Positions 37,313-55,356 of a stretch of 64,000 nt of DNA are shown one piece after another. Source of the stretch: Bacillota bacterium. GTDB lineage: Bacteria > Bacillota > SHA-98 > UBA4971. A model generated the notes under the pieces. The model did no database searches, was not told the DNA's origin, and saw only the letters and a list, made by a program, of their open reading frames with translations. Every line of letters starts with the position of its first letter. The stretch's first letter is position 1. Position numbers and translations under genes: made by a program. Where the stretch lies: contig JANLFY010000013.1 of assembly GCA_024653485.1 (NCBI GenBank), positions 1 through 64,000 on the forward strand. The letters are read 5' to 3'.

Positions 37313-38545
37313 GTGCAGTACAGGAAGTTCGGACGTCACGGCTTCTCCGTTTCCGCACTGGGATTCGGGTGCATGAGGTTTCCCGTCGAGAGCGTCGAGA
37401 GCGTGGAGACGGCCTCGGACGGGTCGGAGACCGGCACCGCTCCTCGGATCAATGAGGATGAGGCCATCGCCATGCTCCGATACGCAATCAGCCAAGGCGT
37501 CAACTACATAGATACCGCCTACAGGTACCACGAGGGCCAGTCGGAAGTCCTCGTCGGCAAGGCGCTGTCCGGAGGGCTCCGAAAGACGGTGAGGCTCGCC
37601 ACCAAGTCCCCGGTTTGGCTGTGCAAGGACCATGGCGACTTCGACCGTTACCTCGATGAGCAGCTTGCCAAGCTGGACACGGACTACATCGATTTCTACT
37701 TGCTCCACTCCCTCTCCAAAGAGACGTGGTCAAAGGCGAAAGACTTGGGAGTCATGGCCTTCCTCGATCGCGCGCTCGCAGACGGACGCGTCAAGTACGC
37801 TGGCTTCTCCTTCCACGACAGTCTTGCGCTCTTCAAGGAGATCGTCGACTCCTACGACTGGAGCCTCGCGCAGATTCACTACAATTACGTAGACGACAAT
37901 TACCAGGCCGGGACAGAGGGCATGGAATACGCCGCGTCGAAAGGCCTCGCCGTCATCGTGATGGAGCCTCTTCGAGGCGGCAGGCTGACGAAGGTGGTCC
38001 CGGAGGACGTCAAAGCCGTGTGGGACGCGGCTCCTGTGAGGCGGACTCCAGCGGAGTGGGGGCTTCGGTGGGTCTGGAACCATCCCGAAGTGACTGTCAT
38101 CCTCAGCGGCATGAGCACCATGGATCAGGTCAGGGAGAACGTCCGCATCGCCGAGGATGCCTTCCCGAACTCGCTCACAGAGGCGGAGCTCGATCTCATC
38201 GCGAAGGTGCGGGCAATCTACAAGAAGAGAATCAGGGTCAGCTGCAGCGAGTGCCGCTACTGCATGCCATGCCCCAATAGCGTGCACATACCCGACATTC
38301 TCTCACTGTACAACGATGCGTTCATGTACGGCACCCTGAGCGACTCGCTGAGAATGTACGATACTCTGAAGAAGGCAGGATGCGACGCTTCAGCGTGCGT
38401 CGAGTGCGGGGCGTGCGAAGAGGTGTGCCCTCAACATCTCGGGATTCCGCAACATCTCAAGGAGATCCACCGGTTCTTCACAAGTGGAGGGGCAGGTCAA
38501 GACGCCGGAGGAAACGAGAGGTTGGGCACGTTGGGCACAAGGTAA
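37313..38545 (+). CDS. Aldo/keto reductase with C-terminal [4Fe-4S] domain
   Basis: A 410-residue protein. Residues 1-300 are the aldo/keto reductase barrel, with GFGCMRFPVE, YIDTAYRYHEGQSEVLVGKAL and DYIDFYLLHSL; catalytic Asp, Tyr, Lys and His positions appear kept. The C-terminal 100 residues carry two cysteine groups, CSECRYCMPC and CDASACVECGACEEVC, which bind iron-sulfur clusters and are typical of the anaerobe-specific YhdN/ferredoxin-fused reductases. Start is GTG 37313 after AAAGGAG. A single-gene unit on the plus strand; the substrate is unknown. Confidence 0.92.
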   Translation: MQYRKFGRHGFSVSALGFGCMRFPVESVESVETASDGSETGTAPRINEDEAIAMLRYAISQGVNYIDTAYRYHEGQSEVLVGKALSGGLRKTVRLATKSPVWLCKDHGDFDRYLDEQLAKLDTDYIDFYLLHSLSKETWSKAKDLGVMAFLDRALADGRVKYAGFSFHDSLALFKEIVDSYDWSLAQIHYNYVDDNYQAGTEGMEYAASKGLAVIVMEPLRGGRLTKVVPEDVKAVWDAAPVRRTPAEWGLRWVWNHPEVTVILSGMSTMDQVRENVRIAEDAFPNSLTEAELDLIAKVRAIYKKRIRVSCSECRYCMPCPNSVHIPDILSLYNDAFMYGTLSDSLRMYDTLKKAGCDASACVECGACEEVCPQHLGIPQHLKEIHRFFTSGGAGQDAGGNERLGTLGTR

Positions 38546-38822
38546 GGCACAGGCCGGAGCGGAGCACGGGCCGGGACGCAAGCGAAGGTTCGCACAGAGG
38601 CTCGGGTCGAAGTTTAGGGGCCGAGGCCAGAGAAGGGCGAGCGGAGACAGTGACGGGGTCGTTCTCGGGACAATCGAGGACGAAGCCGGAATAGGAACGG
38701 TCCGGAGACGCCGGGGCAAGGGCCATGTGCACAGGCCCACGCTCTTGCCCCTTTCCTTCAAATCATGCCAGGGCACGCGGGTCGGAGCCTCCAAGCGACC
38801 GGCACGCCGCCGCGTCGTCCGC

Positions 38823-40442
38823 TCACGACCGACGGCGTGCCCGCGACCGCACGTGTTCAGTATTCCAGTGCGGCACGTTGTTCAGCTCGGCGGATACGGA
38901 TGAGCCCGTTAATGCGGCCGGCCAGATCCGCCGCGGACGGGGCCAAACCCGCAACCCCGTCCTACGAGAGACTTCCCTCCACATCCAGGAACAGGTCCGC
39001 GAGGCCCTGGGTGATCGGGCACCCCCTTTCCGGGCGATGACGTTGCAGCCTCGAGAAGGAACGCGTCTGGACTCGAACCTCAACAGAACGTCCTCTCCGA
39101 CGTGCATAGCGAGCTCGTTCCCCTCTTCCTCGGTCAGGTACACCGATGGGATGTCGAAATCGCCGTCCTCGAAGATGGGGAACGGATAAAGACCGCCCGC
39201 CAGCGCGGGATTCCTTGACGTCGCAGAGATGATTGCGGCGGGGCGTCCCTGCTCGAGGAGACGAATGATCCTTTGGTGGTCATCCGGGTTATAGAAGGGA
39301 AAGTTCTTGGGCATCAGTGGCTCCTTGGCAAGTTCGGAACGAAGGAGGACTATGTTGCCGGTGATGTGCGCGTCCTCCAGTTCGTCCATGGTGGTCGCGC
39401 AAACCAGCGGCGCGGTCACGTCACACGGGAGCGAGTAGGGGCTGACGAACGCCCGGAACGCGCGCTCCCGTGACGCCGCGCCTGCCGCGCCTGCCCCGCC
39501 CGCAGTTCCTGCAGCTCCTGCCCCGCCGGCCCCATCTGCCCCGCCTGTCCCACCTGCCCCGCCTGTCCCGCCTGCCGCTCCTGCCGTGCCTCCCATCTGC
39601 AACGTTACGTCTCCGTGTTCCCAATCGATGCAGTTGAATTCGGGAGTCTCGGTCTCGAAGCCAAGAGAAGCCAACTCGTCCCCGGTGTCGCAAGACGTGC
39701 CCTCCAACCTCTCGAGCCTGGCGATCATCTCCTTCGCACACTCCTCGATCTCCCGGGTCTTTGAGAGCCAGCGGTCTGTCGAATGGAAGACGTCCTCTTC
39801 ATCCGGAGGGACACTGTCCAGAACCTCAACGAGCCGCTCTCGCTGTCCCGTGTCCAACCGTCGCAGCATGCGAAGGATGGACATCATGCTGTATCTGGCG
39901 CGACGCAGCGCCCGGATGACCAGCAGACGGTCCGACTCCATCCTGCCGTAGAGTCGGTACCCGCTCGTGGCATCGCGCGGGATCCGGATGAGGCCGTTTC
40001 GCTCCCAGTTTCTGAGCTCATCAGCGGTCACACCCAGCAGCCGAGCCGCCTGCGCGATGCGCAGTGGACGCGGCAGGGTCTCCGCAGGGAGAGCCCCTCG
40101 TGCCCACCGCTGGAGGTATTGAGCTGCCGCTTCAGCCCGGCTCCGTTCGGCTCTCACCAATTCCAGATGAATCCGAGCTTGTTCCACTGCCTTCCGTCCG
40201 TCCCCGGCTGCCGCAAACCTGATCGCAGCCAGGGCGCGCCTGCGGATCTCTCCGCCAAGCCAGGTGCTCCGTAAGGCGGTCCGGACCAAGAGCACCTGTG
40301 CCAAATGGTCCGGGGAGTACATGCGATAACCGTTAGCGCTTCTCGGCACCGGCGGAAGGAAGCCGAGCTCTTCGTACAACCGAACCGTGTTGACGTGAAT
40401 CCCCGCAGCTTTGGCGATGTCAGATGTCCTTAGGGGTCTCAT
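38823..40442 (-). CDS. Double MerR regulator fused to a truncated M28-peptidase-like domain
   Basis: A 539-residue open frame. Residues 1-70 are one MerR helix-turn-helix (TSDIAKAAGIHVNTVRLYEELGF) and residues about 125-195 a second (IAQAARLLGVTADELRNWERNGL), each followed by helices; such tandem-MerR regulators are known. From about residue 250 the sequence becomes like M28 aminopeptidases (ETPEFNCIDWEHGDVTLQ, then SLPCDVTAPLVCATTMDELEDA, KNFPFYNPDDHQRII and GCNVIARKGG), interrupted by a 40-residue Gly/Ala run. This is the region that precedes and contains the PA-type insert. The zinc-ligand catalytic half that should follow GCNVIARKGG is missing, and the last 65 residues are out-of-frame-looking Arg/Ser/Trp-rich sequence. 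It may be a decayed fusion or a regulator that recruited a sensor domain. Confidence 0.75.
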   Translation of the reverse strand: MRPLRTSDIAKAAGIHVNTVRLYEELGFLPPVPRSANGYRMYSPDHLAQVLLVRTALRSTWLGGEIRRRALAAIRFAAAGDGRKAVEQARIHLELVRAERSRAEAAAQYLQRWARGALPAETLPRPLRIAQAARLLGVTADELRNWERNGLIRIPRDATSGYRLYGRMESDRLLVIRALRRARYSMMSILRMLRRLDTGQRERLVEVLDSVPPDEEDVFHSTDRWLSKTREIEECAKEMIARLERLEGTSCDTGDELASLGFETETPEFNCIDWEHGDVTLQMGGTAGAAGGTGGAGGTGGADGAGGAGAAGTAGGAGAAGAASRERAFRAFVSPYSLPCDVTAPLVCATTMDELEDAHITGNIVLLRSELAKEPLMPKNFPFYNPDDHQRIIRLLEQGRPAAIISATSRNPALAGGLYPFPIFEDGDFDIPSVYLTEEEGNELAMHVGEDVLLRFESRRVPSRGCNVIARKGGARSPRASRTCSWMWREVSRRTGLRVWPRPRRIWPAALTGSSVSAELNNVPHWNTEHVRSRARRRS

Positions 40443-40573
40443 CGATCTGAACCTAACACCAATCGTCTACGCGGTGTCTCGTGTGCCCTGCAAGGCTTGA
40501 GCGCATGTCCGGTGTCGCGCGAACGCTGAGCGATGTCCGGTCTTGCGCTGACGCTAGGCTGGGGAGGGCAGCA

Positions 40574-40756
40574 GGGGACCGGGTGTGGTATCCCCTCGTC
40601 CACTCCTCGTAATACCCCTCGATACTCCTAATGTCCAGCTCATCTGCGATGTCGTTTATGAGGAGCGCCGTGTGCCCCCCCGGTAAGCCAATCGCGCAAA
40701 CGAGGAGGTAACAGCAGCACCTGATCCTGGTCGTGACGCCGACATATCTTGATCAT
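40574..40756 (-). pseudogene. Frameshifted N-terminal remnant of an IS1182-like transposase
   Basis: Read leftward from the ATG at 40756, the sequence gives RRHDQDQVLLLPPRLRDWL. After a run of seven G it shifts frame to HTALLINDIADELDIRSIEG, then YYEEWTRGY. Together this is the conserved N-terminus of IS1182/IS4-type transposases (DQDQ..LLPP.L.DWLP..H....I.D.V.ELDL). One G too many in the G7 run breaks the frame. Similarity stops near 40574, so only about 60 residues remain. It sits just outside the leader-distal end of the CRISPR array. Confidence 0.75.
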
Positions 40757-40869
40757 GCGAGGACTACTCGACCCCGACGCTCAACCTCCTGTACCCTCCC
40801 CACCTTCCCCGCCAATACTCGCACAGGCTCCTCGAGGACCTCGCAAGGGTTGTCGAGCGAGGCATCCAC

Positions 40870-43800
40870 CTCTGAGTTCTCTCGTCATCGAGTCAAGCGG
40901 TGCAACGCCACTACCAAATGGCGCATTAAGCCAACGGACGCGATGCTTTCAGTCCTCTCGTCATCGAGTCAAGCGGTGCAACATAGCGTGTCGAGTGCGG
41001 CTCTCGGGCGAGGTATTGGAGCTTTCAGTCCTCTCGTCATCGAGTCAAGCGGTGCAACTTTAAGGCGCCACATGCGACATTGGAACGTCTACGCTTTCAG
41101 TCCTCTCGTCATCGAGTCAAGCGGTGCAACCAGAGCAAATCGCAGATAACCAGACAGAGTTTGAGCTGCTTTCAGTCCTCTCGTCATCGAGTCAAGCGGT
41201 GCAACGCCGTCTCGTCGGACGCCTTCACTGGACCGGCCCCGACTTTCAGTCCTCTCGTCATCGAGTCAAGCGGTGCAACGATGGGGGTTTTGTACCTGCC
41301 GATCCTGCACTGTTCACTTTCAGTCCTCTCGTCATCGAGTCAAGCGGTGCAACGACGTGGGGCGGCAAGCGGTCTATCAAACGATCCGCGACTTTCAGTC
41401 CTCTCGTCATCGAGTCAAGCGGTGCAACTGACGGGAGGCAAACTCTAACACCAGGGAGGGTAAATCTTTCAGTCCTCTCGTCATCGAGTCAAGCGGTGCA
41501 ACCGGGCGCGGCAGAGTTTTGCAAGAAGGCCCGCGAAAACTTTCAGTCCTCTCGTCATCGAGTCAAGCGGTGCAACGGGCGCGGCGACGCGGCGGGCGAG
41601 GACAAGCCTTGGCCTTTCAGTCCTCTCGTCATCGAGTCAAGCGGTGCAACCACACATGGAACCGCACATCCGGGAGCGTTGGTGCAAGCTTTCAGTCCTC
41701 TCGTCATCGAGTCAAGCGGTGCAACACAAGAGAATTCCGGTTCTGCTCCAAACCCCGGCGGCTTTCAGTCCTCTCGTCATCGAGTCAAGCGGTGCAACTG
41801 GGAGCGGCGCCTGAGGAAGCGGGGTGTCGCGTGACTTTCAGTCCTCTCGTCATCGAGTCAAGCGGTGCAACCAGGCAGTCATACGACAAAGTCTGGCCGA
41901 CTACTCAATCTTTCAGTCCTCTCGTCATCGAGTCAAGCGGTGCAACCGCCCTGCTTAGGGACCTGGTGTTGCTGAACGAAGACCTTTCAGTCCTCTCGTC
42001 ATCGAGTCAAGCGGTGCAACCCCTTTGAAGAGTTCGTCGATGTTAAGGAGAGCCAGCCAGCTTTCAGTCCTCTCGTCATCGAGTCAAGCGGTGGAACGTC
42101 CGGTGAATCACGTACCGGGCATCCACAAGGTCGGCTTTCAGTCCTCTCGTCATCGAGTCAAGCGGTGCAACCTCATGGATGAGATCAGAACCAGGGTGCC
42201 GGGTGTTGCTTTCAGTCCTCTCGTCATCGAGTCAAGCGGTGCAACCACCTGGGCTTCCAGCGTCTTGAGATCACAGTTGGACTTTCAGTCCTCTCGTCAT
42301 CGAGTCAAGCGGTGCAACGAACTACTGAGGCGGTGAGCCGATGACCAACCAAGAGACTTTCAGTCCTCTCGTCATCGAGTCAAGCGGTGCAACTGGCCGA
42401 AAGCAGGGTGACGAGATGGCGCGCTACACAACTTTCAGTCCTCTCGTCATCGAGTCAAGCGGTGCAACGGCGACGTGTCAGTATCATCACACCAGATCCC
42501 GGCGCTCTTTCAGTCCTCTCGTCATCGAGTCAAGCGGTGCAACAGGACCGCGAAAGACGTGTTCCCGGTCCAGAAGAGCCGCTTTCAGTCCTCTCGTCAT
42601 CGAGTCAAGCGGTGCAACCATAAGCGGCCCGTATACGCAGGGTCAACTCCTCCCTTTCAGTCCTCTCGTCATCGAGTCAAGCGGTGCAACCAGACCGGGG
42701 AGAGGGTGCTTTCGAGGCGGCAGAATACTTTCAGTCCTCTCGTCATCGAGTCAAGCGGTGCAACCGCGGCTCTCGACACGAGCGTCGAGGCCAACCGCGC
42801 TTTCAGTCCTCTCGTCATCGAGTCAAGCGGTGCAACCGTAGGCGAACTTCGCGAAAAGGGAATTCGCCTGCGCCTTTCAGTCCTCTCGTCATCGAGTCAA
42901 GCGGTGCAACCGAGATTGGTTGCCATATTCCGGTCGCCCTCCTTCCAGCTTTCAGTCCTCTCGTCATCGAGTCAAGCGGTGCAACTAGCGGCACCGGCCT
43001 CCTACCGGCACTATCCCACACGCTTTCAGTCCTCTCGTCATCGAGTCAAGCGGTGCAACCCGTTGGAACCGCCAAGACCGAGCCAGGGGTCGGATACTCT
43101 TTCAGTCCTCTCGTCATCGAGTCAAGCGGTGCAACGAGTGTCTTGATGACCCGCGCGATTGGGACAACCTCCTTTCAGTCCTCTCGTCATCGAGTCAAGC
43201 GGTGCAACATGGCCCAATCACGATTTGCCTGGGCTTTGTCTTTGACTTTCAGTCCTCTCGTCATCGAGTCAAGCGGTGCAACCGCGAGGGTCAGCGGCAA
43301 GGCCTCCAGCTCGTTGTCCTTTCAGTCCTCTCGTCATCGAGTCAAGCGGTGCAACGTCACATCGCCGCCGTATTGGGGACTCAGGGTGTATGGCTTTCAG
43401 TCCTCTCGTCATCGAGTCAAGCGGTGCAACCTCGCCCGGCTAGGACAAGATATACCAGACGAAATCGTCTTTCAGTCCTCTCGTCATCGAGTCAAGCGGT
43501 GCAACCTGAGAATGGGGCCGCGAAGCGCGAGTTTCTTTGCTTTCAGTCCTCTCGTCATCGAGTCAAGCGGTGCAACCACGATTCGCTCGTCCGAGTAGAG
43601 ATCCCGCTTGCCGCTTTCAGTCCTCTCGTCATCGAGTCAAGCGGTGCAACGGCAGGCAGCTCTGTTCTGGATGTAGGGGCCGGGCTGACTTTCAGTCCTC
43701 TCGTCATCGAGTCAAGTGGTGCAACTCCTGCGCGATGAGGAGATGGACGCAGCCGCGAAGGCTTTCAGTCCTCTCGTCATCGAGTCAAGTGGTGCAACCT

Positions 43801-44247
43801 GGTGCGCATTGAGAGTTTGTACGCCTTTGTTGCGCCTTTCAGTCCTCTCGTCATCGAGTCAAGTGGTGCAACTCCCGAGACTTCAAGCGCGACGTGAAGG
43901 CCGTAGCGCCTTTCAGTCCTCTCGTCATCGAGTCAAGTGGTGCAACTGGATGAGGCGGGCTCGGTGATGGCGACGGAGATCTTGCTTTCAGTCCTCTCGT
44001 CATCGAGTCAAGTGGTGCAACTGTGTCCACTCCTTGTCCGATGGCTTTGCGGCTTGACACTTTCAGTCCTCTCGTCATCGAGTCAAGTGGTGCAACGCTT
44101 TGGCTCGCCCTTGGAAACGTATCTGCGAATTTACCCTTTCAGTCCTCTCGTCATCGAGTCAAGTGGTGCAACGGCTTGGAGCGTTGCCGCATCCTCGAGC
44201 TGCCTCTTTGCTTTCAGTCCTCTCGTCATCGAGTCAAGTGGTGCAAC
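40870..44247 (-). CRISPR. CRISPR array, 46 repeats of 37 bp and 45 spacers
   Basis: A 37-bp direct repeat, in the crRNA sense beginning GTTGCACCGCTTGAC and ending GGACTGAAAG, recurs 46 times; spacers are 34-40 bp and all different. The 3' end ACTGAAAG resembles the ATTGAAAC handle of Cas6-processed type I/III repeats, so transcription should run right to left. This is supported by the last repeat on the left (40870-40906), which is degenerate at its 3' end as expected for the leader-distal repeat. Repeats 39-46 (43689 to 44247), nearest the presumed leader, all carry one base change. Repeat 17 (42061) has a different single change (GGTGGAAC). Only cas6 lies nearby. Confidence 0.98.
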
Positions 44248-51888: not shown

Positions 51889-54800
51889 TCAGCTCGCCGC
51901 GTGCCGCTCCGCATGGGGCCCCGCATGGTGCTCGTGGTGCTCTTGAAGGCTCTTCGCCTGCAGCGACCGAGCCTGCAGGGCTTTGATCCCTTCCACCGCC
52001 GCACGGGCAGCACGGACGGTTGTGATGACCGGCACGCCACGCCTCAGCGCCTCCAGCCTCACATAGTACTCCTCACACGCGGGACCGCGTGCGGACGGCG
52101 TGTTGATGAGGAGGTTCACCTGTCCCCTCCTAATGCACTCAACCGCGGCTGAGGCGCCGCCACCGACGCCGCGTCCGGACTCGCTCGCGGCAGAGTCTCC
52201 TCCACCGCCTTCGCCGCCTTCGACCCTGCCGGTGCCCCCGCCCCCGCCAGCGCGCTCCATTGCCTCGTCTCCGGCGCATCCGGCGCATTCGGCGAGCTCG
52301 ACCGCGATTCCCAAGCTGCGGAGGTACTCCGCGGTCGCTCCATACGAGACCAGCGTGAATCCCAGCGCCGCAAGCTCCCGAGCCACGGGCGCAACAGAGG
52401 CCCGCTCCCACTCGGAGGCAACCACGAGCACGGTGCCGGCCTTGGGCAGCGGCGTCCCCGCCGCCAACTCCGCCTTGGCGAAGGCCGCACCGAACGTCTC
52501 GTCTATTCCCATGACCTCGCCCGTGGAGCGCATTTCCGGGCCGAGCACAATGTCTGTCCCGGGGAACTTGGCGAACGGGAAGACCGCCTCTTTGACCGCC
52601 ACGTGCCTGGGCATAGGATCGCTGACGAGACCGAGCTCGCGGAGGGTCCTCCCGACCATGACCCGCGTGGCGATCCTGGCAAGAGGCACGCCCACCGCCT
52701 TGCTGACGAACGGGACTGTGCGCGAAGCTCTGGGATTCGCCTCCAGGACGTAAACCGTGCCGTCCTTCACCGCGAACTGGACGTTCATAAGCCCCACCAC
52801 GCCCAGAGCGCGAGCGAGCGACCTGGTCTGCCGCTTGATCTCGTCAACACATCCTGGAGAAAGGCCTAGTGGCGGGATGGAACAAGCGCTGTCCCCGGAA
52901 TGGATCCCGGCGTGTTCGATGTGCTCCATGACGCCCCCGATGACCACCTCATCGCCGTCGCATACCGCGTCCACGTCCACCTCGGTGGCTCCCGCGAGGA
53001 AGCTGTCTATCAGGATCACCTGGCCGGGTGCGACTTCCATGGCACGCTCGACGTAGCTCTTGAGGGAAGCGTCGTCTCTCACTACCTCCATGGCCGCGCC
53101 GCCCAGGACGTACGATGGACGGACCAGGACCGGGTAACCCAGCGACCGCGCCACATCGAGCGCGTCGCCGACCGTCCTCGCCACGCCGTGAAGGGGCTGC
53201 TTCAGGCCTAGCTCGTCTGCGAGCTTCGAGAACTTCTCTCGATCCTCCGCCAAGTCGATGCTCCGCGGGGATGTCCCCAAGATCCTGAGCCCAGCGTTTT
53301 CGAGCGCCGACGCCAGCTTGAGCGGGGTCTGTCCGCCGAACTGGACTATGACTCCCCAGGGACGCTCCTCATCCGCGATGTTCAGAACGTCTTCCAACGT
53401 GAGCGGCTCGAAATACAGTCGGTCAGAGATGTCGTAGTCGGTGCTCACAGTCTCAGGATTGCAGTTGACCATGATGACCTCGTAGCCCTCTTGCTTGAGG
53501 GCGAAGGCCGCCTGCACGCAGCAGTAGTCGAACTCAATGCCCTGGCCTATCCTGTTGGGTCCGCTTCCGAGGACCATGACTTTCGGCCGACCCGAGGGCC
53601 TCGCCTCGTCCTCCGTCTCATAAGTGGAGTAGTAATACGGCGTGCGCGCTTCGAACTCCGCCGCGCACGTGTCCACCAGCTTGAAGACGGGACGGATGTC
53701 GTGCTCGAGCCTGTACCGCCTTACGTCGAGCTCGCAAGATCCCGTGAAGGTGGCGAGCTGCTGGTCTGAGAAGCCGCACCGTTTCGCCCGCCGCACGAGA
53801 TCAGGGCCAAGGGCGTCGAGCGCGCCCCCTTCCGCGCGTGCCTTGATCTCCTCCTCAACCTCTGCTATCTCCTTGAGATGCCAGAGGAACCACCTGTCAA
53901 TGCGCGTCAGACTGTACACTTCCTCGATGTCCATCCCCATGCGGAGGGCACGGTACACGTCGAAGATTCTATCGGGGCCCAACACCGCGAGCCTCGAGCG
54001 AAGTTCCGAAAGCCCGTCCTCCTGGTCACACCTGCCGCCCGCGTCACACCGGCCGCCCGCCCGCTGCCCGCGGGGTGCCCCGGTGATGACGCCCGGCGCG
54101 TCGGGATCGCGCCCGTCGGCGGCGTTGAGGCCAAGCGTGGCGCTGCCCTGGTCGAGCGAGCGAATGGCTTTCTGTAATGCCTCCTTGAAGGTCCGGCCGA
54201 TGGCCATGACCTCCCCCACCGACTTCATCTGCGTCGTGAGCGTGCTGTCCCCACCTGGGAACTTGGCGAAGTCCCAGCGGGGGATCTTGACGACACAGTA
54301 GTCTATGGCAGGCTCGAAGGACGCGGGAGTCTCGCGTGTTATGTCGTTCGCTAGCTCATCCAGTGTATAGCCAACGGCGAGCTTGGCGGCGATCTTGGCT
54401 ATGGGGAAGCCCGTGGCCTTCGAAGCGAGCGCGGACGATCTCGACACGCGCGGGTTCATCTCGACTACAACCATGCGTCCGTCCTCGGGACGCACGGCGA
54501 ACTGAATGTTGGAGCCTCCCGTTTGGACTCCTATCTCGCGGATGACGGCGATGGCAGCGCTGCGCATGGCCTGGTATTCGACGTCCGTGAGCGTCTGGGC
54601 CGGCGCGACCGTGATGCTGTCTCCCGTGTGGACGCCCATCGGGTCGAGGTTCTCGATGGAGCAGACGATGACCACGTTGTCGGCGCCGTCCCTCATGACC
54701 TCGAGCTCGTATTCTTTCCAGCCAATCGCCGACTCCTCCACCAGCACCTCATGCACGGGGCTGAGGCTTGTTCCCGTGCTCACGACCTCCGCTAGCTCCC

Positions 54801-55356
54801 TGGCGTTGCGCGCCACACCGCCGCCCGCTCCACCCAGCGTGAACGAAGGACGAACCACAATGGGGTACCCCACGGCCATGGCGAACTCCAGGGCCTCCTC
54901 AACCGAACGCACGCGTCGGCTGCGCAGCACGTCCAGGCCGATGCGGGACATGGCCGACTTGAAGAGCTCCCTGTCCTCGGCCTTCCGAATCGCTTCGAAA
55001 CCCGCCCCGATGAGCTCGATCCCGTGCTTTTCAAGGATGCCGTGTTCATGGAGCTCCACTGCGAGGTTGAGGCCGGTCTGGCCGCCTAGGGTTGGGAGGA
55101 TCGCTGAAGGCCGCTCACGCTCGATGATCCGCTCGAGGACCTCGAAGCAAAGGGGTTCCACGTATGTCCTGTCAGCCATCTCGGGGTCTGTCATGATCGT
55201 AGCGGGATTGCTGTTCACGAGGATCACTCTATAGCCTTCCTCTTTCAGCGCTTTACACGCCTGCGAACCCGAGTAGTCGAACTCACACGCCTGGCCTATG
55301 ACTATCGGACCCGACCCGATGATGAGGATGCTTTCGAGGTCTCGTCTCTTTGGCAT
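51889..55356 (-). CDS. carB: Carbamoyl-phosphate synthase large subunit
   Basis: A 1155-residue large subunit that makes carbamoyl phosphate from bicarbonate, ATP and glutamine-derived ammonia. Both ATP-grasp halves are present: [22 protein letters not shown] and [19 protein letters not shown] open them, and GGSNIQFAV and [12 protein letters not shown] lie inside them. The length exceeds the usual 1060-1080 residues because of two low-complexity insertions, one in the linker at about 430-450 and one Gly/Glu/Ser-rich in the C-terminal allosteric domain at about 1050-1095. The catalytic domains look intact. carA is 150 bp upstream. Confidence 0.97.

Follow-up and report, generated by a model that had tools for sequence, protein, structure and literature searches.

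A tandem MerR regulator joined in frame to the non-catalytic part of an M28 aminopeptidase, most likely through ordinary gene decay

Introduction

Regulators of the MerR family bind promoters with a long spacer and distort them. The closest described proteins to the one considered here carry two MerR units in a single chain of about 250 residues and are encoded beside an ABC transporter or M28 peptidase gene, for example WP_223617369.1 of Enterococcus faecium (L035). These known double-MerR regulators end after about 250 residues without an M28 part, whereas our protein continues into M28 sequence. On the peptidase side, the nearest systems are M28 aminopeptidases with a PA domain (L047-L126; solved examples are 2ek8, PaAP of P. 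aeruginosa and 3iib). The PA-like part of our protein is up to 64% identical to its relatives in this group, but the N-terminal 40 or so residues and the entire metal-binding core are missing. HspR of the fused homodimer type (NF047377) likewise has two MerR-type units per chain, but the match to this model, at 26.3 bits, stays far under its 300-bit cut-off. CA_C2195 of Clostridium acetobutylicum (DUF4910/DUF2172/HTH_47) also combines a metallopeptidase-like domain with a DNA-binding-type fold in one chain. It differs from our protein in its C-terminal winged helix, its retained peptidase-like domain, its more than 200 homologues and in not being a MerR protein (PMC4000134).

Judged by title and abstract, literature searches brought up nothing relevant on a pair or fusion of double MerR and M28, which is no proof of its being undescribed; for tandem MerR proteins, titles and abstract beginnings likewise revealed nothing on the proteins discussed here. 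Against this background we analysed a window of 64,000 nucleotides at the start of contig JANLFY010000013.1 from a Bacillota draft genome, in which one open reading frame combines both families.

Architecture of the fused reading frame

The frame begins with an ATG and stays open over 539 codons. The initial annotation had placed it at 38823-40442, and this interval stands; the strand was found to be the minus strand (40442..38823). A double MerR regulator that runs without a stop into M28 sequence had been described there, and this picture is borne out by the single 539-residue frame, the two MerR domains and the M28 homology. Two features come in addition: the M28 part has also lost its N-terminal stretch of about 40 residues, and it is interrupted by a Gly/Ala-rich segment of about 43 residues.

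The tandem MerR regulator occupies residues 1-250 (39693..40442, minus strand), with helix-turn-helix units at about residues 5-70 and 127-195. Both Pfam models for the MerR-type helix-turn-helix match in two stretches and pass their curated cut-offs, PF13411 with an E-value of 7e-26 (90.6 bits, cut-off 21.6) and PF00376 with 4.6e-24 (84.4 bits, cut-off 28.2). Identity amounts to 35% over residues 1-246 with the E. faecium protein and to as much as 56% with relatives from the phylum. The AlphaFold blocks of this region mostly have a pLDDT of 90 or more. The MerR part probably still folds, and it may still bind DNA.

All following parts lie on the same strand. The first junction, at residues 251-255 approximately (39678..39692), leads from the MerR end to about residue 41-43 of an M28 protein, as seen by comparison with the unfused remnants in a congeneric genome (G001, see below). 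It is followed by the M28 fragment that precedes the PA part (residues 255-284, 39591..39680), recognised in alignments with intact M28 proteins and with the G001 remnant. Then come the Gly/Ala-rich linker (residues 285-327, 39462..39590), the PA-like part (residues 328-474, 39021..39461) and a tail of residues 475-539 with the stop codon (38823..39020).

The aminopeptidase part and what it has lost

The similarity of residues 328-476 to M28 proteins reaches 63-64% identity, with E-values, relative to the candidate stretches searched, down to 3e-63. Although the Pfam PA model matches weakly (E 0.043, 14.4 bits against a cut-off of 23.9), homology and conserved columns identify the segment as the PA-like inserted part of the M28 subfamily, and at this level of similarity we regard the homology as true. 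The similarity had been proposed to extend to GCNVIARKGG, and it does end at this motif, at the point where the Peptidase_M28 domain of the intact relative L047 starts (its residue 211). According to the alignments and an AlphaFold model of the intact protein L049 (mean pLDDT 92.2, pTM 0.91), the window retains approximately residues 43-217 of 410, which comprise the PA-like part and also the strands before the metal-binding core; the core itself is absent.

This agrees with the earlier view that the catalytic half is missing: the Peptidase_M28 domain has no Pfam match anywhere in the 539 residues, and no catalytic sequence follows downstream. The metal-ligand residues of M28 presumably all belong to the sequence after the break. 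A catalytic half continuing downstream in another frame was considered and rejected, with no match in the tail region at an E-value of 0.01 or better; the lowest value, 0.019, belonged to L034, a protein with a C-terminus that itself looks frameshifted. Could an intact copy exist elsewhere in the genome? Although six Pfam M28 matches occur in this genome, only the window matches the M28 part at an E-value of 1e-6, so that the intact gene that had been suggested as a check was looked for and none of this subfamily was found. The peptidase has probably been lost.

Neighbourhoods of the two genes in other bacteria

The M28 part was found in 10 of 398 genomes of the phylum, the source genome included. 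In a collection of species genomes a pattern matched 390 stretches, of which 303 were confirmed; the best 80 (L047-L126) were retained. The closest relatives among these 80 show 60-64% identity and come mostly, but not only, from Chloroflexota; intact proteins typically have about 400 residues. We surveyed the surroundings of 91 M28 loci (L034 and L037-L126, the window's own copy left out). In at least 10 of them a double-MerR gene adjoins the M28 gene on the same strand, a lower bound since many loci have short flanks, with two weak partial MerR matches (L091, L096) not counted. The regulator lies upstream in six cases (L034, L043, L057, L063, L103, and L118 from Anaerovirgula multivorans) and downstream in four (L037, L039, L040, L110). 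The two genes are separated by 9-149 nt in eight loci and by 754 nt in L063, and in L057 they overlap, depending on the start chosen. None of the 91 loci has the two genes fused. The recurrence of a double-MerR regulator adjoining an M28 aminopeptidase in distant bacteria is a by-product of this analysis.

Conversely, the window's MerR part was detected in 16 of 397 other genomes of the phylum, at 18 loci, whose neighbours were classed by eye and with one tblastn search for M28. An ABC transporter gene follows downstream in eight, an M28 gene lies alongside in four, and six have other or no clear neighbours. From these surroundings, the double-MerR family seems to be tied to one of two kinds of neighbour, an ABC transporter or an M28 gene.

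Several individual loci deserve mention. In L179-L186, the eight of the 18 phylum loci just mentioned that were classed by eye, and in L035, members of the same double-MerR family stand directly upstream of genes for an ABC transporter ATPase and permease; L035 is an E. faecium plasmid on which this neighbour is annotated as an ABC transporter and which also carries poxtA. On an Enterococcus raffinosus plasmid (L034, 6867-8096) the M28 protein beside a double MerR aligns with its relatives up to about residue 300, and its C-terminus is then unlike them, as if frameshifted.

Remnants of the module in congeneric genomes

Among the five congeners compared, G001 alone has any remnant of the module; three others (G002-G004) show no match to the fusion protein and G005 matches the Gly-rich stretch only. 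In G001 the MerR end is followed by a stop codon and then, in the same frame, by the start of an M28 gene, whose sequence ends abruptly after DVTLQVG. Between the two points that meet in the window, G001 has approximately 201 nt, with the breakpoint uncertain by a few bases. As this distance is a multiple of three, a single deletion would yield the first junction. The M28 fragment at residues 255-284 shares 86% DNA identity with the G001 remnant over 95 bp. The order carB, amylase, module is common to the window and to the G001 contig C65, apart from an inversion of the module with respect to carB and amylase, so that the module is probably ancestral and has decayed differently in each.

Linker and tail

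Most of the linker is an imperfect 9-bp tandem repeat (39475-39585, 12.3 copies). A second gene in the window provides a comparison. CarB (51889-55356, minus strand; L193-L196, L198 in the comparison) is normally well conserved, and its insertions differ in length and content in each congener compared; within the genus they measure up to about 50 residues and are partly of low complexity, one being a long repeat of the GDP/GEP type in G001. Gene-internal growth of low-complexity sequence may be a trait of the genus, and the linker would fit it. Since the CarB insertions resemble it, the linker is weak evidence either way and no sign of design.

The tail had been called non-native, and this description holds: no M28 protein or other relative was found for residues 475-539, and the GC content at the three codon positions (0.55/0.72/0.74) deviates from that of the PA part (0.63/0.44/0.76) and of five other genes in the window (0.58-0.68, 0.43-0.56 and 0.75-0.80). 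By composition the tail looks non-coding. Downstream of the junction an alternative frame appears protein-like, but it matches no Pfam family, and the idea that the tail copies another gene was rejected. Short DNA matches to this region, of 26 bp in G003 and 21 bp in G001, are read there in different contexts. A match in the source genome itself (contig C22, 6926-7111; 35% over residues 469-532, with two TAG codons inside) was judged to be noise, because the part covered is the tail and a renewed tblastn search there gave nothing better than an E-value of 0.36.

Conservation and predicted structure

Is the truncated M28 part decaying? When the window's M28 parts (residues 255-284 and the PA part) are aligned with 81 other M28 proteins, they contain 38 columns conserved to at least 90%. 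The window violates none of them, the other proteins 1.68 on average and 18 at most, and its terminal branch has median length (rank 41 of 82). This leaves two options, a recent truncation or continued constraint on the PA part. This pattern speaks against long neutral decay and against simply reading the locus as an old pseudogene. It is no proof of function, as a protein with several per cent of its residues changed would often pass: the probability of doing so, (1-q)^38, falls to 0.05 only at a q of about 7.6%. The G001 M28 remnant is itself truncated and leaves 57 codons for comparison with the window, too few for a rate estimate; synonymous differences affect 12 of these codons and nonsynonymous ones 9.

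AlphaFold, run on 34 sequences including M28 relatives, predicts the MerR pair and the PA-like part with high confidence; the alignment contained these relatives, so that the predicted PA fold is informed by them. Residues 288-321 in the linker and 481-539 in the tail have a pLDDT below 50, and both regions are predicted to be disordered. Foldseek matches the PA-like part best to the M28 aminopeptidases 2ek8 (E 6.3e-10), PaAP and 3iib.

Origin of the fusion

Two origins had been put forward initially, a deletion fusion of neighbouring genes and the capture of a peptide-binding module as a sensor. The first is supported by the separate neighbours in other genomes and the unfused remnants in G001, and we consider it quite likely that a double-MerR regulator and an M28 aminopeptidase were joined in this way. 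For the second we found no positive support among the 91 unfused loci. Most likely the locus reflects ordinary gene decay and not a new kind of sensor. We infer the following course. A small in-frame deletion would have taken away the end of the regulator's coding sequence with the stop codon, and about 40 residues from the start of the enzyme; in a further event unrelated sequence would have taken the place of the catalytic half, and a GC-rich repeat would have expanded within the remaining M28 part. The product would probably be a MerR protein with an enzymatically dead PA-like passenger domain. We prefer a recent deletion fusion, after which the catalytic half was lost, as the most economical account of the observations. 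The odd architecture is then the expected outcome of a small deletion between neighbours, and a false lead is removed. Against it stand the undecayed M28 part, the open frame and the coincidence of the retained piece with a foldable domain, with which a random break need not coincide.

The locus could also be a pseudogene that is dead as a whole, MerR part included. That the MerR gene is merely a remnant in G001 as well would fit, and no sigma-70-like promoter was found in 38500-40900, a weak test in which shuffled sequences average 0.3. However, the MerR part breaks only 2 of 39 conserved columns (11 other sequences break 0-7) and its terminal branch is the shortest in the set, which makes a dead locus rather improbable. 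This estimate overlaps with that for the deletion fusion, since the locus can be both.

Another explanation is a working single-chain regulator, in which the double MerR would sense a ligand or peptide through a PA-like domain taken from the enzyme that was once its target and held on a flexible linker, with the tail as a harmless extension. If functional, it would exemplify a regulator that gained a sensor from its target. The fully conserved M28 part, two confidently predicted folds with a disordered linker between them and a break near a domain boundary would suit such a protein. But the architecture was not found in a second lineage. The initial annotation had named uniqueness to this assembly, together with neutral codon substitution, as what would make the fusion a pseudogene, and no further instance indeed turned up in the 91 M28 loci, in the nine plasmid records with a match (none covering 80% of the query in one place) or in viral contigs. 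The tail looks non-coding, the linker resembles the CarB insertions, and the module is decayed in G001 and lacking in four more congeners. A function is also required, and only conservation and fold speak for one. We therefore consider this reading unlikely, and equally so its variant of a one-component regulator born from a collapsed two-gene unit.

Misassembly of the draft genome (41 contigs), with separate genes or a complete M28 in the real cell, would account for the uniqueness of the fusion. It would also fit the interval after the second junction, 38546-39020, for which neither the rest of the genome nor the five congeners gave a long match. It is unlikely, however, given a completeness of 98.93 and a contamination of 1.02 with no catalytic half of the subfamily having turned up elsewhere in the assembly, and given that the first junction, compared with G001, is a clean deletion that keeps the frame.

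Further observations at the locus

The remnant in G001 has itself entered a longer frame. A 369-residue ORF (L166, 11056-12165, minus strand) carries the last 40 or so MerR residues in frame after an unrelated protein with repeated, beta-rich-looking segments, a second, independent chimera from the same module. The wider locus also differs between genomes. Positions 37313-44247 of the window were compared with 1-9122 of L165 in G002; both contain an aldo-keto reductase gene and a CRISPR array of the same repeat. Between the reductase gene and the array, G002 has ORFs that we took by reading, with no family search, for cas3 and further cas genes. In the window the fusion occupies the corresponding interval, and a cas6-like ORF follows beyond the array.
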